Shown piece after piece: positions 32,196-46,309 of a stretch of 46,309 nt of DNA; within the stretch, counting starts at the first letter, position 1, and each line of letters starts with the position of its first letter. This DNA is from Lachnospiraceae bacterium M18-1 (GTDB taxonomy: Bacteria; Bacillota; Clostridia; Lachnospirales; Lachnospiraceae), in NCBI GenBank assembly GCA_000403295.2, contig KE159613.1, forward strand, positions 7,008 to 53,316. The letters are read 5' to 3'. The notes below the pieces were generated by a model that worked only from the letters and a program-made list of their open reading frames with translations, had not been told where the DNA came from and made no database searches. Both the position numbers and the translations under genes were made by a program.

Positions 32196-32264
32196 TGTAA
32201 AATCTTCCTTTCTTTTGGTTGGGAAGTATGCTACAATCCCGTTTTCGACACTTTAGACGTTTAG

Positions 32265-32310
32265 AAACTCCGATAACCCTTATAAACACTAGGATTACCG
32301 GAGTTTTCTT
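32265..32310 (+). terminator. Terminator-like hairpin before the IS1634-type element
   Basis: AAACTCCG (32265-32272) pairs with CGGAGTTT (32299-32306) and is followed by TCTTT. It ends just before the insertion sequence and may be a terminator of a lost plus-strand gene. Confidence 0.5.
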
Positions 32311-32320
32311 TCGATAAAAA

Positions 32321-34245
32321 TGTTGTATGTAAACACTACCCCAATATTTTTTTTATTTTTTTGTTTAGCTCCGTAGGTTTGTAGTGGAGTCTGTCCAGAT
32401 CCAAAGATGTTAATTGATTTAGTGCATCAAGTGCTTTGCTTCCATTATAGAGTGCCAGATACTCGACATCATGTATGTTCGTTACATTCATGTTTTTCAA
32501 TGTAGTGATCAGATTTTCAGGGGTGACATGTGTCCCCTGATCCTCCAGCCTGACTTCAAGCAAACGATATACCAGCAATGCCGTATAACAGATCAGAAAG
32601 TGTGCTCTGATGCGGTTCGGCAGTCGGTGGTTTACAGGTCTCCCGGTGAAATTTGTTTTCATGATTCTGAAACAATCCTCTATCTGGTACCTCTTGTGGG
32701 AAACTGCCAGGATATCCCCGGCTGAATCACAAAGGTTTGTTGCTACGGCATAATATCCGTCATATTTTTCTTCCTCGGCAATCTTGGATTCATCGAGAAT
32801 ATATTCAACGGTTGCTTTTTCGCCAGATTTTGTATGGGTGATCCTCTTCATGAACCGTTTCACATCATTCGGGCCTTTTTTTATTTCTTCCGGATCTTTC
32901 TTCTCTAACAGTTTTCGTGTACGCTCGACCTGGCGGTCACGTACAGTCCTCTGATATTCCATCATTTTTCTTGAAAAAGTTATGATCAGACGCTGTTTGA
33001 GGGCACCGGTTGCTTTCACGCGTTTGATTTTGCCATTTTTCAAAATTTTTTCTTCGTACAGCCCGAGATCGACGACTTTATCTGCAGGGATCACTTTATA
33101 CGCAAAATCATTATATAGTTTCAGATTCTCTTTCTTGTGTCTGTCAAAGCCCTTCATATCTTCTATTTTTACCGGGGTGTCATTGGAAAGTAGCCTGTAT
33201 TCAAAGTCATTGAATACCGCTTGTTTGAGTGTATTACTAAGTTTTTTGATGGACTGGGTTACAATAAAGGCGCGGCCCCCCATACTGTTGAATTTACGGA
33301 TGTTATAGGACCCCAGGCCCGCATCCGCACAATAAATGAATTTGGAATCATCCAACATTTTAAGGACCTCTTCTTCCAAGGGGATTGCTGTAAGCTGTTC
33401 ACTGGTATTCCCGGAATGGAGGCACATGGTGATGGGGATGCCCCTGCTGTCCATGAAAAGTCCCATTTCTACAATCGGGTTCGGGCGGTGTTCTTTACTC
33501 AGGCCATATTTTCTCAATCCATTGATCACCTCACCGGTCACTTCATCTACAATATCTTCGTCGGGCTGCTCACACTCAAAGTAAAAATTCGTACAGTCAT
33601 AATAAAGGACCGAAGTATCGCGTTTGACGATAGAATTGCTGTACTTAAAAAGCCACGTCAGGTAATCGTCATAATTATTTTCTAAAAGGTCCATAAACCG
33701 GAGGATATGCTGGTAATCGAAATCCGGCTGCTCGTAATAGGAATCCCGGCGGTTCCATGTGGCAAGCTTGGAGCCGGGGTCGAGGACTCTTGCGTAGGTA
33801 AGGAAACGTGAGATTGTAAAGCAGTCATATGTAATTCTACGTGTGTCGGCTTTCTGGCGAAAGAATTCTTTAAGGTTAAGGTTTTTCATAATATTCTGAA
33901 GAAAGAAATATCCGATGTTGACCCAGTTGGAGGAAGAGGCTTCTTGATCGGTGTGCTTCACCTTTTCGTTAAAATCGGCAGTCAGGTTAAAAGCAACCTT
34001 TCCAACGCGGTACTCTTCATTCATTTTTCTGATTTCTTCTCTTACATAGGCTTCCGGATCGTCAGTTATCTTCAGAAGTTCGGAATGCTTACCGAAGTTC
34101 CTAACATTTCTAGTGGTAGTTTTTTTCCCATTTCGGATACCTTGCTGTGCGTAATAGGTAGGATCTTTGAGACGTTTATCAAAGTATAACTTCATAGAAC
34201 ATCACCTCAAAAACATTATATCACAAACATACAGCACATACAACA
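32321..34245 (-). mobile_element. Insertion sequence, IS1634 family (copy 1)
   Basis: The element is proposed to run from TGTTGTATGT (32321-32330) to its inverted copy ACATACAACA (34236-34245), flanked by 6-bp direct repeats TAAAAA (32315-32320 and 34246-34251). Size (1.9 kb) and target duplication fit the IS1634 family. The flanks are A-rich, so the ends need confirmation by comparison with other copies. It lies within the rpsI element, between the frameshifted gene and the IS200-type element. Confidence 0.65.
32336..34195 (-). CDS. IS1634 family transposase
   Basis: A 619-aa IS4-superfamily transposase of the IS1634 type. Recognisable pieces are VLYYDCTNFYFECE with the first catalytic Asp, FIYCADAGLGSYNIR with the second Asp, and the YQIEDCFRIMKTNF block with the catalytic Glu. 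The sequence is intact. It is about 40 percent similar by eye to the second IS1634-family transposase at 44350-46077, so the two are different elements rather than recent copies. A TATAAT sequence at the right end could serve as its -10 box. Confidence 0.92.
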   Translation of the reverse strand: MKLYFDKRLKDPTYYAQQGIRNGKKTTTRNVRNFGKHSELLKITDDPEAYVREEIRKMNEEYRVGKVAFNLTADFNEKVKHTDQEASSSNWVNIGYFFLQNIMKNLNLKEFFRQKADTRRITYDCFTISRFLTYARVLDPGSKLATWNRRDSYYEQPDFDYQHILRFMDLLENNYDDYLTWLFKYSNSIVKRDTSVLYYDCTNFYFECEQPDEDIVDEVTGEVINGLRKYGLSKEHRPNPIVEMGLFMDSRGIPITMCLHSGNTSEQLTAIPLEEEVLKMLDDSKFIYCADAGLGSYNIRKFNSMGGRAFIVTQSIKKLSNTLKQAVFNDFEYRLLSNDTPVKIEDMKGFDRHKKENLKLYNDFAYKVIPADKVVDLGLYEEKILKNGKIKRVKATGALKQRLIITFSRKMMEYQRTVRDRQVERTRKLLEKKDPEEIKKGPNDVKRFMKRITHTKSGEKATVEYILDESKIAEEEKYDGYYAVATNLCDSAGDILAVSHKRYQIEDCFRIMKTNFTGRPVNHRLPNRIRAHFLICYTALLVYRLLEVRLEDQGTHVTPENLITTLKNMNVTNIHDVEYLALYNGSKALDALNQLTSLDLDRLHYKPTELNKKIKKILG

Positions 34246-34274
34246 TAAAAATAGGAAAAATTTGACAAAAAACT

Positions 34275-34896
34275 GAACCACTACCGACTAAAGTCGGTAG
34301 GTTCGGTTTGCTGCTGAAGCAGCCTAAAGTTGTCGTCTCTTCACTTATTTCCTTTTCTACTTAACTTATCTCAAAGTTGTCCGTTTTTGTTTTCTCTTGT
34401 AAATCTTGATTTTGGATATACTCTTTGATAATTTCATCTGTCACATTTCCACTACTTGCTACAAAATATCCCCTTGCCCACAAATGTTGTCCCCAAAATT
34501 GCTTGTTCAATTCTTTATATTCCATTTGCAACTTTCTGGATGTTGCTCCCTTGATATACTGTACCAATTTGCTTGCTGACAAATGCGGTGGTACTGACAC
34601 TAACATATGGATGTGATCGGTTCCCACATGTCCTGCCAGGATTTCTACGTCATTTCTTTGGCACACGATTCGGATCAATTCTCTTGTCCGAACGGCTATC
34701 TTTCCTATGATCACTGGCTTTCTATATTTCGTGATCCATACCAAGTGATATTTAATATCATACGTGCAATGTGACGATTTTCTATAATTCTCCATATTCT
34801 TCACCTCATGTTTAGTATCTCTATTTTTACTTTTTCTAAACTTGAGGGTATGGGGTTGACCTAAAGGTTTCGCCTTAAGGCGAGGGTTTTAACCCC
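34275..34896 (-). mobile_element. IS200-type insertion sequence (tnpA only)
   Basis: The tnpA gene is flanked by the subterminal hairpins usual for IS200/IS605: CTACCGACT-AA-AGTCGGTAG (34281-34300, extended by GAAC and GTTC) downstream, and a GGGGTT...AACCCC stem (34852-34896) containing CGCCTTAAGGCG upstream. There are no inverted terminal repeats, as expected. It has cut a gene whose 3' remnant begins just beyond. Exact cleavage sites are not defined. Confidence 0.7.
34361..34795 (-). CDS. tnpA: IS200/IS605 family transposase TnpA (HUH, Y1)
   Basis: A 144-aa single-strand transposase. The HUH motif is HIH at residues 61-63 (TDHIHMLVS) and the nucleophilic tyrosine is Tyr126 in IKEYIQNQ. 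It acts as a dimer on hairpin-bearing single-stranded ends. ATG 34795 with GAGG 8 bp upstream is preferred to GTG 34804. The sequence appears intact. No tnpB gene accompanies it. Confidence 0.93.
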   Translation of the reverse strand: MENYRKSSHCTYDIKYHLVWITKYRKPVIIGKIAVRTRELIRIVCQRNDVEILAGHVGTDHIHMLVSVPPHLSASKLVQYIKGATSRKLQMEYKELNKQFWGQHLWARGYFVASSGNVTDEIIKEYIQNQDLQEKTKTDNFEIS

Positions 34897-43081: not shown

Positions 43082-44239
43082 CTATTGTAATCGGATCTGT
43101 ATGTTCTTTTTTATTCCAATGTATTCTTTCAACCTGACAGCCTGAAAGGATTCCAGTATCTTCTGATGCTTTTGTTCCATACTCAGATGCATCCCTTCCC
43201 ACAATCTTCCCCATGTCTCCATTATCTGTGCAATCATGTGCCCGATCTGGATCAGGTAATAATGGTTTTTGATCCCCTGGTAGTTTTTACTGAACAAGTG
43301 CTTCAAATAATATCCCTGATTCTTTTGCGTATTAAACCCTTCATTTTCTATTTTCCAGCGCATCCGCCCCTTCTCCACCAGATCGCATACATTCTTTTTT
43401 CTCACCGGCAGACTTGTCAAAAAACAGAACGACTTTTTTTCCTCACGTTCGATTTTGCACATCCCTCTTTTTATGGTCCGTTTCAGTTCCTCACCATACT
43501 CCATCAAATTGATTTTACATCCGTTATAGTCAATCTCATTTACATAATCATACCAGTATCGGCCATTTTTTATTTTCGTTTCCTTTCGGTTCTTTTCCAA
43601 GTCTTTCAGTTTTCTATATTCCTTTCCTACTGTCGGGATACTTCCCTCCTTAAATCGGATCAGATACTGCCACCGGTATTCCCCGCATTTCCGGAAAAAT
43701 GGCTCACATGCATACAGGCTGTCCGCACATAGGCAGATATTTAATCTTGGAAACTGCTTCTTCAGCTTTTCCATCAGTCTCACACCTGCTTTCCTTTCGC
43801 AGTCCTGCTTGTCCATCTCTTTCCCATCATTTTCCACAAATTCGGTCATAATACTTACTACAATCTTGGGATGCAATACCAACTTTGCCTCCAGGACATA
43901 GTAATAATTCTCGCGGTATTCTTCCGGCTTGCCTTTGTGATGGATCCGGTACATGCATTTCGGATCCAGCGGCTTACGGCTGCTGTGTAACTGGGTCCCG
44001 TCTAAAATGATCTGCCAGTGTTTCTCTCCAATTCGCGCCCCTTGGAACGCCTTGCTCCGCAGCAGGCGGTACACCAGTTTCCAAATGACTTCCTGCAGAG
44101 ATTCCGGCTCCAATTTTTCCAGATACCGGTTGATGGTCTCCCAGTAAGGGAGCTCGCGGACGGTTTCTTCCTCTGCGCATAGTTCCCAGATATTTTCAAT
44201 CATGAGATCCGAATTGAATTCTTCACTTGTTTTTCTCAT
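43082..44239 (-). CDS. DDE transposase, 5'-interrupted by an IS1634-family element
   Basis: A 385-aa frame with IILDGTQLHSS (first Asp), ICLCADSLYACEP (second Asp) and MRWKIENEGFNTQKNQGYYLKH (Glu, in part) of a DDE transposase. I cannot name its family with certainty. The frame has no good ribosome binding site at ATG 44239, and in-frame codons (GFYISS) continue upstream until a TAA that belongs to the adjacent IS. The first 95 bp of the visible 5' region recur at 46215-46309, so the original gene continues beyond the window and this copy lacks its true N-terminus. Confidence 0.75.
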   Translation of the reverse strand: MRKTSEEFNSDLMIENIWELCAEEETVRELPYWETINRYLEKLEPESLQEVIWKLVYRLLRSKAFQGARIGEKHWQIILDGTQLHSSRKPLDPKCMYRIHHKGKPEEYRENYYYVLEAKLVLHPKIVVSIMTEFVENDGKEMDKQDCERKAGVRLMEKLKKQFPRLNICLCADSLYACEPFFRKCGEYRWQYLIRFKEGSIPTVGKEYRKLKDLEKNRKETKIKNGRYWYDYVNEIDYNGCKINLMEYGEELKRTIKRGMCKIEREEKKSFCFLTSLPVRKKNVCDLVEKGRMRWKIENEGFNTQKNQGYYLKHLFSKNYQGIKNHYYLIQIGHMIAQIMETWGRLWEGMHLSMEQKHQKILESFQAVRLKEYIGIKKNIQIRLQ

Positions 44240-44244
44240 ACTGC
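44150..44244 (-). repeat. Long direct repeat, copy 1 (target duplication)
   Basis: These 95 bp are identical to 46215-46309. They are part of the interrupted transposase gene (from SSMRKTSEEFN to about ETVREL) and lie on the left side of the IS1634-family element. Confidence 0.9.
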
Positions 44245-44283
44245 TGATGTAAAATCCTGTCTTTGACAGTTAGTAGATTAAAC

Positions 44284-44322
44284 AATCGCTGTATCCCTTG
44301 TATTTTCTGGGTTACAGCGATT
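44284..44322 (-). terminator. Transposase terminator hairpin
   Basis: AATCGCTGTA (44284-44293) and TACAGCGATT (44313-44322) are perfect inverted partners; on the minus strand the stem is followed by GTTTAATC. It lies 28 bp after the transposase stop codon. Confidence 0.6.
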
Positions 44323-44349
44323 ATTGTCGTTGTTACGAAATATAGTAAT

Positions 44350-46077
44350 TTATTCTTTCCCTTTACTTTTTTTCTGAATGGTTCTCATGCTGCTTTTGGT
44401 TATGAATTGATAATCCGTTCGGAAACCACAGACTTCATGGAGAGCATCCGTGATAAACTCTCGTCTGTATAGTGGGATAAATCCCTGTTCCTGTATTTCG
44501 GCGAAATTCATTGCTTTTAGTGTATCTAATAATTCTCCGCAGGTGTACTTATAATCCAGTTTTTTCTCAAGAAAACGGTAGAGTGTTAATGCGAGAAAAC
44601 AAATCAGGAAATGTGCTCTGATCCGGTTTTCATCCTGTAAATAAACAGGTCTTGCAGAAAAATCTGTTTTCATAATCCGGAAACATTCCTCGATCTGCCA
44701 TCTGCCCTCACTTACTTTCAGGATATCACTGACCTCATCATCCAAAAGGTCTGTGCATACTGCATAGAGTCCGTCGTATCCAGCCTCCTCAGAAATCTTC
44801 TTCTCATCCAGATAATATTGGATATCAGCAGCTTCCCCTTCTTCTGTAACTGCTGTTTTTCCAATAAACCGGGCCGGGTCATTGGGATTTTTCCGGTTCT
44901 TTTTGGACTTCCCTGAATCCAGCATCTTCTGTGCCCGCTCTACCTGTTTGTCACGGATCGATTTCTGATAAAGGGCATATTTCGGAGAATACGTGATGAT
45001 CAGGCGCTGATGCAGTTTCTTTGTTGTATAGGGTTCGTCTTTGTAATAAAGCCCTTTGTCATCCTCAGAAAGCTTTGTGATATCGACAGGTGTATCATCA
45101 GATACTCTTTTAAAGCCCTGCGGATTTAACGCCCATTCTTTTTCTTCTTTCTTCAGCTTTTTGATGGACTGAGTTACGATATAAGCTCGTTCCCCCATGT
45201 GATTATATTCCCTGATGGATTCAGAACCCAGTCCGGCATCACTGCAATAAATGAATTTCTGGCATTCGAAATCCCCAAGGACTTTCTTTTCTAATGGCTT
45301 CAGGGATGTCTGTTCATTTGCATTTCCCGGAAAGAGAGAGAAAGCAAGGGGGATTCCATCCCCGTCCATAAACAGCCCCATTTGGATGATTGGGTTTGGT
45401 CTGTGTTCTTTACTTTTTCCGTATTTTTTGATGCCATCTTCCTGTTCGATTTCGAAGTAATAATTCGAGCAGTCATAATAAAGGATCTTGTCATTCCTCT
45501 TTCCAAGATAGTGGCTGTTTTTATAGACTTCTGCCTGGATGAGGTCACATTCAGCCCCAAGGACATCCAATGCCCGGTACACATCATGGAGTTTGTAAGA
45601 AGGTTTCTCTAAAAACTCAGATGCTGCCTTGTAAGAAGAACGCTTGCTGCAAGGCTCCAGAATCCTTGTATAGATCAAGTCAGACAGAATTGCATTGATA
45701 TCATACTTGAATTTATATTTCTGTTTTAACTTCCGGCAGATCTTATTCATTTGCAGCTGATAATAAACGGATTGGATAAAAAGATAGCCGCCGCGGAAGA
45801 AGGTCTGTTTACCATAATCTAATTGCCTGTCAGCGTGGAATGGAATCAATACTGTTTTTGCTTCTTTTTCCTTTTTATATTTTTCAGTTTCTATTTTCGC
45901 TTCATTTTTTGCCCATGCAACCACTTCCTCTCTTGTAGGGCCATGCTCAGGAAGAAGCTGTTCTAAAGTTCCCAGCTTGCGGACAATTGTAGAAGTAGTG
46001 CTTCCATTTGCTTTTACATACGATTTGCAGATATAAAAGGACTCTGCATTTTTAGATTTTGTTATGTGAAGATTCAT
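44350..46077 (-). CDS. IS1634 family transposase
   Basis: A 575-aa transposase with ILYYDCSNYYFEIE (first Asp), FIYCSDAGLGSESIR (second Asp) and WQIEECFRIMKTDF (Glu). The same blocks occur in the 619-aa transposase at 32336-34195, but overall divergence is large. GGGAGGGATGATAT precedes ATG and a TATAAT lies upstream, close to the element end. It is intact and presumably active or recently active, since the flanking duplication is still identical. Confidence 0.92.
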   Translation of the reverse strand: MNLHITKSKNAESFYICKSYVKANGSTTSTIVRKLGTLEQLLPEHGPTREEVVAWAKNEAKIETEKYKKEKEAKTVLIPFHADRQLDYGKQTFFRGGYLFIQSVYYQLQMNKICRKLKQKYKFKYDINAILSDLIYTRILEPCSKRSSYKAASEFLEKPSYKLHDVYRALDVLGAECDLIQAEVYKNSHYLGKRNDKILYYDCSNYYFEIEQEDGIKKYGKSKEHRPNPIIQMGLFMDGDGIPLAFSLFPGNANEQTSLKPLEKKVLGDFECQKFIYCSDAGLGSESIREYNHMGERAYIVTQSIKKLKKEEKEWALNPQGFKRVSDDTPVDITKLSEDDKGLYYKDEPYTTKKLHQRLIITYSPKYALYQKSIRDKQVERAQKMLDSGKSKKNRKNPNDPARFIGKTAVTEEGEAADIQYYLDEKKISEEAGYDGLYAVCTDLLDDEVSDILKVSEGRWQIEECFRIMKTDFSARPVYLQDENRIRAHFLICFLALTLYRFLEKKLDYKYTCGELLDTLKAMNFAEIQEQGFIPLYRREFITDALHEVCGFRTDYQFITKSSMRTIQKKSKGKE

Positions 46078-46214
46078 ATATCATCCCTCCCACCTCTTAT
46101 TATATCACACAATAACATAAAATACCATATATAAAAACAAATATTTTGACACAAAAAAAGCAGGTTTTGTGCGACCTGCGAGTACTTTTTGGATTATTCA
46201 GTTGTCAAACTCCC

Positions 46215-46309
46215 GAGCTCGCGGACGGTTTCTTCCTCTGCGCATAGTTCCCAGATATTTTCAATCATGAGATCCGAATTGAATTCTTCACTTGTTTTTC
46301 TCATACTGC
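46215..46309 (-). repeat. Long direct repeat, copy 2, and start of interrupted transposase gene
   Basis: Identical to 44150-44244 and running off the window end, so the full duplication is at least 95 bp. It contains the 5' side of the interrupted DDE transposase gene, whose upstream part lies beyond the window. Confidence 0.9.

Follow-up and report, generated by a model that had tools for sequence, protein, structure and literature searches.

How does a bacterial insertion sequence (IS) come to lie between two long copies of its target, and what sets the borders of the copied DNA? The question is raised by a stretch of 46,309 nucleotides from Lachnospiraceae bacterium M18-1 (contig KE159613.1; the whole stretch is called the window below), in which an IS1634-family element is flanked by a direct repeat of at least 95 base pairs (bp). 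A first, sequence-only reading of the window had described the repeat as a long target duplication. Comparing the locus with its relatives, we found that the placement of the repeat is non-random and that one of its borders is a putative promoter -10 box, which the earlier reading had missed. At most sites of the clade to which the element belongs, comparison of the junctions shows the right end of the IS to be fixed directly downstream of a putative -10 hexamer of the sigma-A promoter type, with the left end at a variable position upstream.

Results

The flanking repeat is a duplicated target

The identity of positions 44150-44244 with 46215-46309 is exact over 95 bp and far beyond chance, and the second copy stops solely at the window end. 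Between the copies lies the IS (44256-46215; 1,960 bp, with a minus-strand transposase gene), delimited by its terminal repeats and by the target homology, which ends at 44255. It carries CCTGTCTTTGACAGTT at its right end (44256-44271, plus strand) and CGGGAGTTTGACAACT at its left end (46200-46215, minus strand, read 46215-46200), and since these sequences assign base 46215 to the IS terminus, the duplication is taken as 44151-44255, an inferred length of 105 bp (95 bp being directly seen as a repeat). The first copy (44151-44255, plus strand, 105 bp) is defined by the exact repeat, by relatives and by the intact target; of the second (46216-46309, plus strand) 94 bp are visible, the window end cutting off 11 further predicted bp, and it is predicted to continue beyond 46309 as TGATGTAAAAT, followed by the upstream region of the target. 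Besides the IS ends, the 105-bp length is based on two uninterrupted target relatives (L202 and L206, 69-70% identity, in the genome of L001), which continue through the insertion site and whose homology to the window breaks off at 44255, the last base before the IS.

The 575-aa transposase (44350-46077, minus strand) scores 358.6 bits with the NCBIfam model NF033559 (IS1634 family; cut-off 100), which bears out its earlier family assignment. A 2008 review (PMC2266710) characterizes the family by a length of 1500-2000 bp, ends starting with C and an incomplete YREK motif, and the element agrees with this in its 1,960 bp, in the C that begins both ends, and in its motif, in which R458, E462 and K469 are in register and S occupies the Y position 455. 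Its duplication, 105 bp inferred and 95 bp seen, exceeds the 5-6 bp AT-rich target duplication that the same text gives as the general rule of the family; since IS1549 and IS1634 are listed there as exceptions with 8-514 bp (PMC2266710), a long duplication does not exclude membership. The repeats had also been read as parts of another transposase gene, and indeed the target is an open 385-aa DDE transposase open reading frame (ORF) of a different IS (43082-44239, minus strand), the first codons of which lie inside the duplication; the right-hand repeat copy is an orphan piece of this ORF, which itself is still open.

The duplication survey covered 203 loci and window pieces, 198 of them with a transposase ORF and 95 with a repeat candidate; at many of the loci without a candidate, the contig ends at the IS. 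Seven loci were dropped for a terminal inverted repeat matching below 9/14 (L056, L068, L085, L111, L133, L161, L192), three because no end was found (L104, L141, L201) and three for low identity (L116, L152, L153), leaving 82 loci that represent 72 distinct sites. The same layout at these 72 sites, several of which come from contigs of multi-Mb size or from a complete chromosome, upholds the reading of the repeats as a long duplicated target instead of as ends of the IS. One could instead see in the window repeat an assembly chimera or a recombination product, in which two copies of the target IS each had an insertion and the left junction of one was joined to the right junction of the other: the repeat copy runs exactly to the window end, repeats being a common place for contigs to stop, several related contigs finish no more than a few bases from an IS end, and the target, being itself an IS, could be multi-copy. 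Given 72 distinct related sites that share this arrangement, many of them on long contigs, a left-hand junction in the window (at the right end of the IS) that obeys the -10 rule set out below, and intact target relatives that match the expected order, we regard such an origin as highly unlikely. An empty site is also at hand, since one duplication site, Hungatella locus L073, was found without the IS in a second Hungatella genome, where the first 41 of its 72 duplicated bases occur once and the intergenic sequence beyond them has diverged.

The right end follows a -10-like hexamer

In many relatives the IS is bordered at both ends by a long direct repeat that starts, after the right end, with ATTATA or a close variant, which on the opposite strand is TATAAT immediately preceding the IS. 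The training set for this pattern consisted of 81 loci, namely the window and the best 80 of 270 loci obtained by scanning species genomes for relatives (67-97% identity; by their titles mostly Lachnospiraceae), and it provided 63 usable right junctions after eight without a right end, eight with less than 60 bp of flank, one with an N and one duplicate had been dropped. Position counts over these junctions gave TATAAT at -6 to -1, TTG at -29 to -27, corresponding to a 17-bp spacer, and TG at -9/-8; the hexamer holds about 1.0-1.2 bits of information at four positions, and 48 of the 63 junctions match TATAAT in at least 5 of 6 bases. In the window, TAAAAT (5/6; 44250-44255, plus strand) stands immediately before the right end, with a weak -35-like hexamer, TTGTTT (3/6; 44227-44232, plus strand), 17 bp ahead of it. 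The left junctions show no promoter signal (at least 5/6 in 1 of 61 on the transposase strand and in 0 of 61 reversed), merely a weak C at -2 (36/61).

The rule tracks one lineage. In a quick tree of 49 transposases, in which some branches are long and exact placements are uncertain, with SH-aLRT (Shimodaira-Hasegawa-like approximate likelihood ratio test) support and no bootstrap, it follows a clade of 30 rows (SH-aLRT 100) that includes both IS1634-family copies of the window as well as one Carnobacterium and one Ligilactobacillus plasmid copy. Of the 72 surveyed sites 46 fall in this clade and 26 outside. The 46 clade sites with a measured duplication comprise 28 training and 18 new sites, and TATAAT was matched in at least 5/6 at 21 of the former and, in a test that was not blind because several of its sites had been inspected beforehand, at 13 of the latter (p = 1.4e-22; 12/17 without L112, the right end of which was moved one base by hand). 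The null rate of such matches in the same flanks is 1.04% (5,077 of 486,710 positions), and outside the clade they occur at 1 of 26 sites. For a pattern-only sample, 299 genomes were scanned for the right-end 16-mer, which 39 of them contain, at 61 places in total; among the 54 places read, four had already been seen and one was too short, leaving 49 new junctions. Taken after the rule was fixed, and possibly including close kin of the training elements, these matched TATAAT in at least 5/6 in 33 cases and at least 4/6 in 40, and exactly in 16. Altogether 129 junctions, mostly from Lachnospiraceae, were collected, with at least 5/6 in 93 and at least 4/6 in 114.

A -35 hexamer matching in at least 4/6 was found at a spacer of 17 in 32 of 80 junctions, eight of them with exact TTGACA, whereas none of the other spacers from 10 to 25 exceeded 9; the same peak appeared in the pattern-only sample, with 16 of 49 at spacer 17 and at most 3 at other spacers from 12 to 22. 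When the 60 junctions with TATAAT in at least 5/6 were considered, 65% had a -35 of at least 4/6 at a spacer of 16-18, as against 17.7% of 1,137 intergenic TATAAT-like sites from the same loci (Fisher 7e-15). The extended -10 position carried TG in 43 of 129 junctions, compared with 4 to 24 at six other offsets. These counts bear on the simpler possibility that the transposase itself reads a TATAAT-like hexamer and RNA polymerase is uninvolved, promoters merely containing such hexamers. Most of the information does sit in the hexamer, and many sites have no recognisable -35; however, hexamer reading alone gives no ground for a -35 at 17 bp, and since the -35 is enriched at exactly this distance over intergenic TATAAT-like sites and the peak recurs in 49 further sites, we hold this possibility to be unlikely.

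The stretch between the two ends is duplicated together with the putative -10 and, at 45 of the 46 clade sites, with room for a -35 at normal spacing. Following the direction of the promoter, one meets promoter copy 1, then the IS with its right end first and its left end last, and after it promoter copy 2 and the gene; the downstream gene would thus retain a core promoter, so that the element can sit ahead of a gene without cutting off its promoter. We compared open frames behind promoter copy 2 at 45 sites with enough flank, 40 of which had a clear longest frame, and found it on the promoter's strand in 31 and on the opposite strand in 9 (p = 0.0007), whereas far-side control frames were divided 22 to 20. 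Large mechanically called ORFs begin 26-72 nucleotides past the hexamer in L048, L044, L073, L074 and L021. A co-oriented gene behind promoter copy 2 in 31 of 40 cases is also what survivorship would leave, if insertion took place anywhere and those insertions that duplicated a promoter and spared the gene persisted. But harmlessness cannot fix the right end to one base beside a -10, intergenic non-promoter sites being equally harmless, and the long duplications of other lineages are without the motif (1/26 with at least 5/6), which leaves survivorship as a very improbable account of the pattern.

The length of the duplication is variable

Duplications at 45 clade sites measure 30-406 bp (median 93, quartiles 75 and 133), and the 46th site, L112 on a Ligilactobacillus plasmid, has 14 bp. 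A search for flanking repeats of varying length among copies of one genome that are identical over the whole IS or have one difference gave 47, 51, 68, 76 and 93 bp in Parablautia, 72, 75 and 134 bp in a complete Hungatella chromosome, 78, 156, 230 and 236 bp in genome G239, 128 and 325 bp in G020, and 123 and 281 bp in G303. Since near-identical copies differ in this way, each event sets its length afresh. At the free border there is a weak base preference, with a G immediately beyond the duplication at 27 of 45 clade sites (promoter strand). The IS copy of L112 (Ligilactobacillus salivarius plasmid NZ_CP089852.1), with its 14-bp duplication at a TATAAT, lies just upstream of an ermC leader and erm(C).

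Duplications in other lineages of the family

That sub-lineages of the family differ in their duplications, as the first reading had supposed, holds across the tree, with long duplications in several clades and 4-6 bp in another. Seven rows of the tree have duplications of 4-6 bp, in four cases weakly measured, and these rows cluster together; the short duplications of L154-L157, L179-L181 and L188-L190 were measured on three or four copies each, and those of L135, L139, L151 and L191 are weak, coming from one copy each and a crude pipeline. Long duplications without the motif occur at two other places in the tree (L113/L119/L123/L145 and L167/L198), so that long duplication extends more widely than promoter docking. 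In a sister group with CCTGAGTTTTACAG ends (L163-L166, L186), two of the five sites carry an exact TTGACA-N17-TATAA or TATTA that stops a base short of the hexamer end, and one site has TATAAT in register, which is the single match outside the clade; this group was left out of the clade. Five further plasmid loci gave 47 bp in Rhodococcus, 5 bp in Streptomyces, 5 bp in Alicyclobacillus and no result in two.

Several groups and single loci invite separate remarks. In the long, motif-free L145-L148 and L167-L171, both junctions mostly have T before the IS, as if the ends chose their sites independently. In L116, L152 and L153 (G013, G075), short-duplication IS1634-family elements lie in CRISPR arrays, three insertions in two genomes, each within a repeat at TATGA and with the 5-bp duplication TATGA (TCATA on the other strand). 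The Carnobacterium plasmid locus L111 (NZ_LN846931.1), read by eye, has a repeat in pieces of 175 and 144 bp; this repeat starts at TATATT, with TTGACA 17 bp away, and the left copy of the ~310-bp duplication contains an extra insert of ~115-125 bp that opens with a palindrome and may be a small mobile repeat.

The second IS1634-family element and other features of the window

A second element of the same clade, with its left end lost, occupies 32238-34272 (minus strand) and encodes a 619-aa transposase (32336-34195, minus strand). Immediately before its right end stands TACAAT (5/6; 32232-32237, plus strand) in the context TATGCTACAAT, ahead of which no clear -35 hexamer was seen. Its homology to relatives ends at 34272, about 55 bp before the full left end, where an IS200-like Y1 transposase gene (34361-34804, PF01797) adjoins, and since the left end is lost, no duplication is measurable there. 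The 6-bp candidate repeat once proposed for this copy, then placed at 32321-34245, is therefore not confirmed, the right end being at 32238. Nor is the contrast of long and short repeats within the window supported, as relatives of the second element have 57 bp with TATTAT (L095), 110 bp with GATTAT (L098) and 406 bp with TATAAT two bases off (L103).

Within the element at 44256-46215, a terminator-like hairpin (46160-46179, minus strand) lies just inside the left end and is oriented toward the transposase gene; a similar hairpin was found in 41 of 45 relatives, compared with 64 of 360 internal control pieces. At the right end an inward terminator was found in 11 of 45 relatives, not enriched by the criterion applied, and the right end of the window element holds an inverted repeat (44281-44325) with 17-nucleotide arms that are 88% complementary.

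Discussion

Taking the evidence together, we consider a right end docked on a promoter, a free left end and guidance by RNA polymerase with sigma-A to be probably the best overall explanation of these junctions. In such a mechanism, the promoter-bound RNA polymerase-sigma-A complex of the host would select the target. If strand transfer follows the geometry common to DDE enzymes, the right end would join the template strand within the melted bubble, roughly between -7 and -6, and the left end would attack the other strand upstream, at an uncoupled distance. Host DNA synthesis, by strand displacement from the first nick or by filling of the melted stretch, would then copy the intervening DNA, and the variable duplication length among near-identical elements would arise because this synthesis copies whatever lies between the joints. 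We lean slightly towards this fuller picture of a DDE clade that lands on the open complex of the host RNA polymerase, one end being joined in the bubble and the other wherever synthesis or melting had reached upstream, with the duplication as a way into promoters without silencing the gene, instead of a mere by-product.

Several observations weigh against the explanation. Fifteen of the 129 junctions match the hexamer in fewer than 4/6 and many -35 hexamers are weak, including TTGTTT in the window, so recognition is not absolute; the clade member L103 has its TATAAT two bases from the end and 3/6 in register. The window insertion sits ahead of the transposase gene of the target IS, but its -10-like hexamer faces away from that gene, so that the site may resemble a promoter without serving as one. 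TG was not significantly commoner with a weak -35 (20/52 versus 11/36, p = 0.30), that is, no compensation between promoter elements was seen, and the duplication lengths showed no phasing at 10, 10.5 or 11 bp. The fold search, with Tn5-like matches over transposase residues 96-559 and the first ~95 residues barely covered, yielded no part known to bind RNA polymerase.

The pattern points to a model with one fixed and one free end, the fixed end marking a promoter, and it suggests a role for transcription initiation in guiding a bacterial DDE transposase. If true, this would explain how such elements of gut bacteria stay tolerable ahead of genes, and where a genome lacks transcript data, their insertions may locate its promoters with single-base precision. 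The question of long variable duplications would thereby become testable at the bench.

How do these elements compare with known systems? Reports of long variable duplications by IS1549 and IS1634 date from 1998 and 1999 (reference list of PMC2266710), and that 2008 review states that no mechanistic model had been put forward. IS1634 of Mycoplasma mycoides and IS1549 of Mycobacterium smegmatis belong to the same family as the window element and have similarly long variable direct repeats (PMC2266710); they differ in that the accessible text of that review, through which they are known here, tells of no promoter rule for them. The ISGka5 type shares the family model and IS layout and duplicates 6 bp, within the 4-6 bp group (PMC8024623); our short-duplication elements fall in a separate group of the transposase tree from the promoter-docking clade. 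The IS50/Tn5 transposase is about 9% identical to that of the window, and the IS50 group is listed with duplications of 8-9 bp (PMC2266710). Beta-clamp-binding IS1634 transposases are described with a C-terminal QLxLF-like motif (PMC4549789); regular expressions found no such C-terminal motif in the clade transposases, which have QMGLF or QMGMF mid-protein instead. No report of the promoter rule was found in the open-licence literature searched, subscription papers lying outside the search; within that literature the family and its long repeats are known, and what appears new is the fixed border at the promoter, the clade that shows it and the duplicated promoter. In target-primed retrotransposons such as LINEs (long interspersed nuclear elements), one border is set by the first nick and the other is variable. 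Although the clade elements differ from these in using a DDE transposase and no reverse transcriptase, they resemble them in combining one fixed with one variable border.

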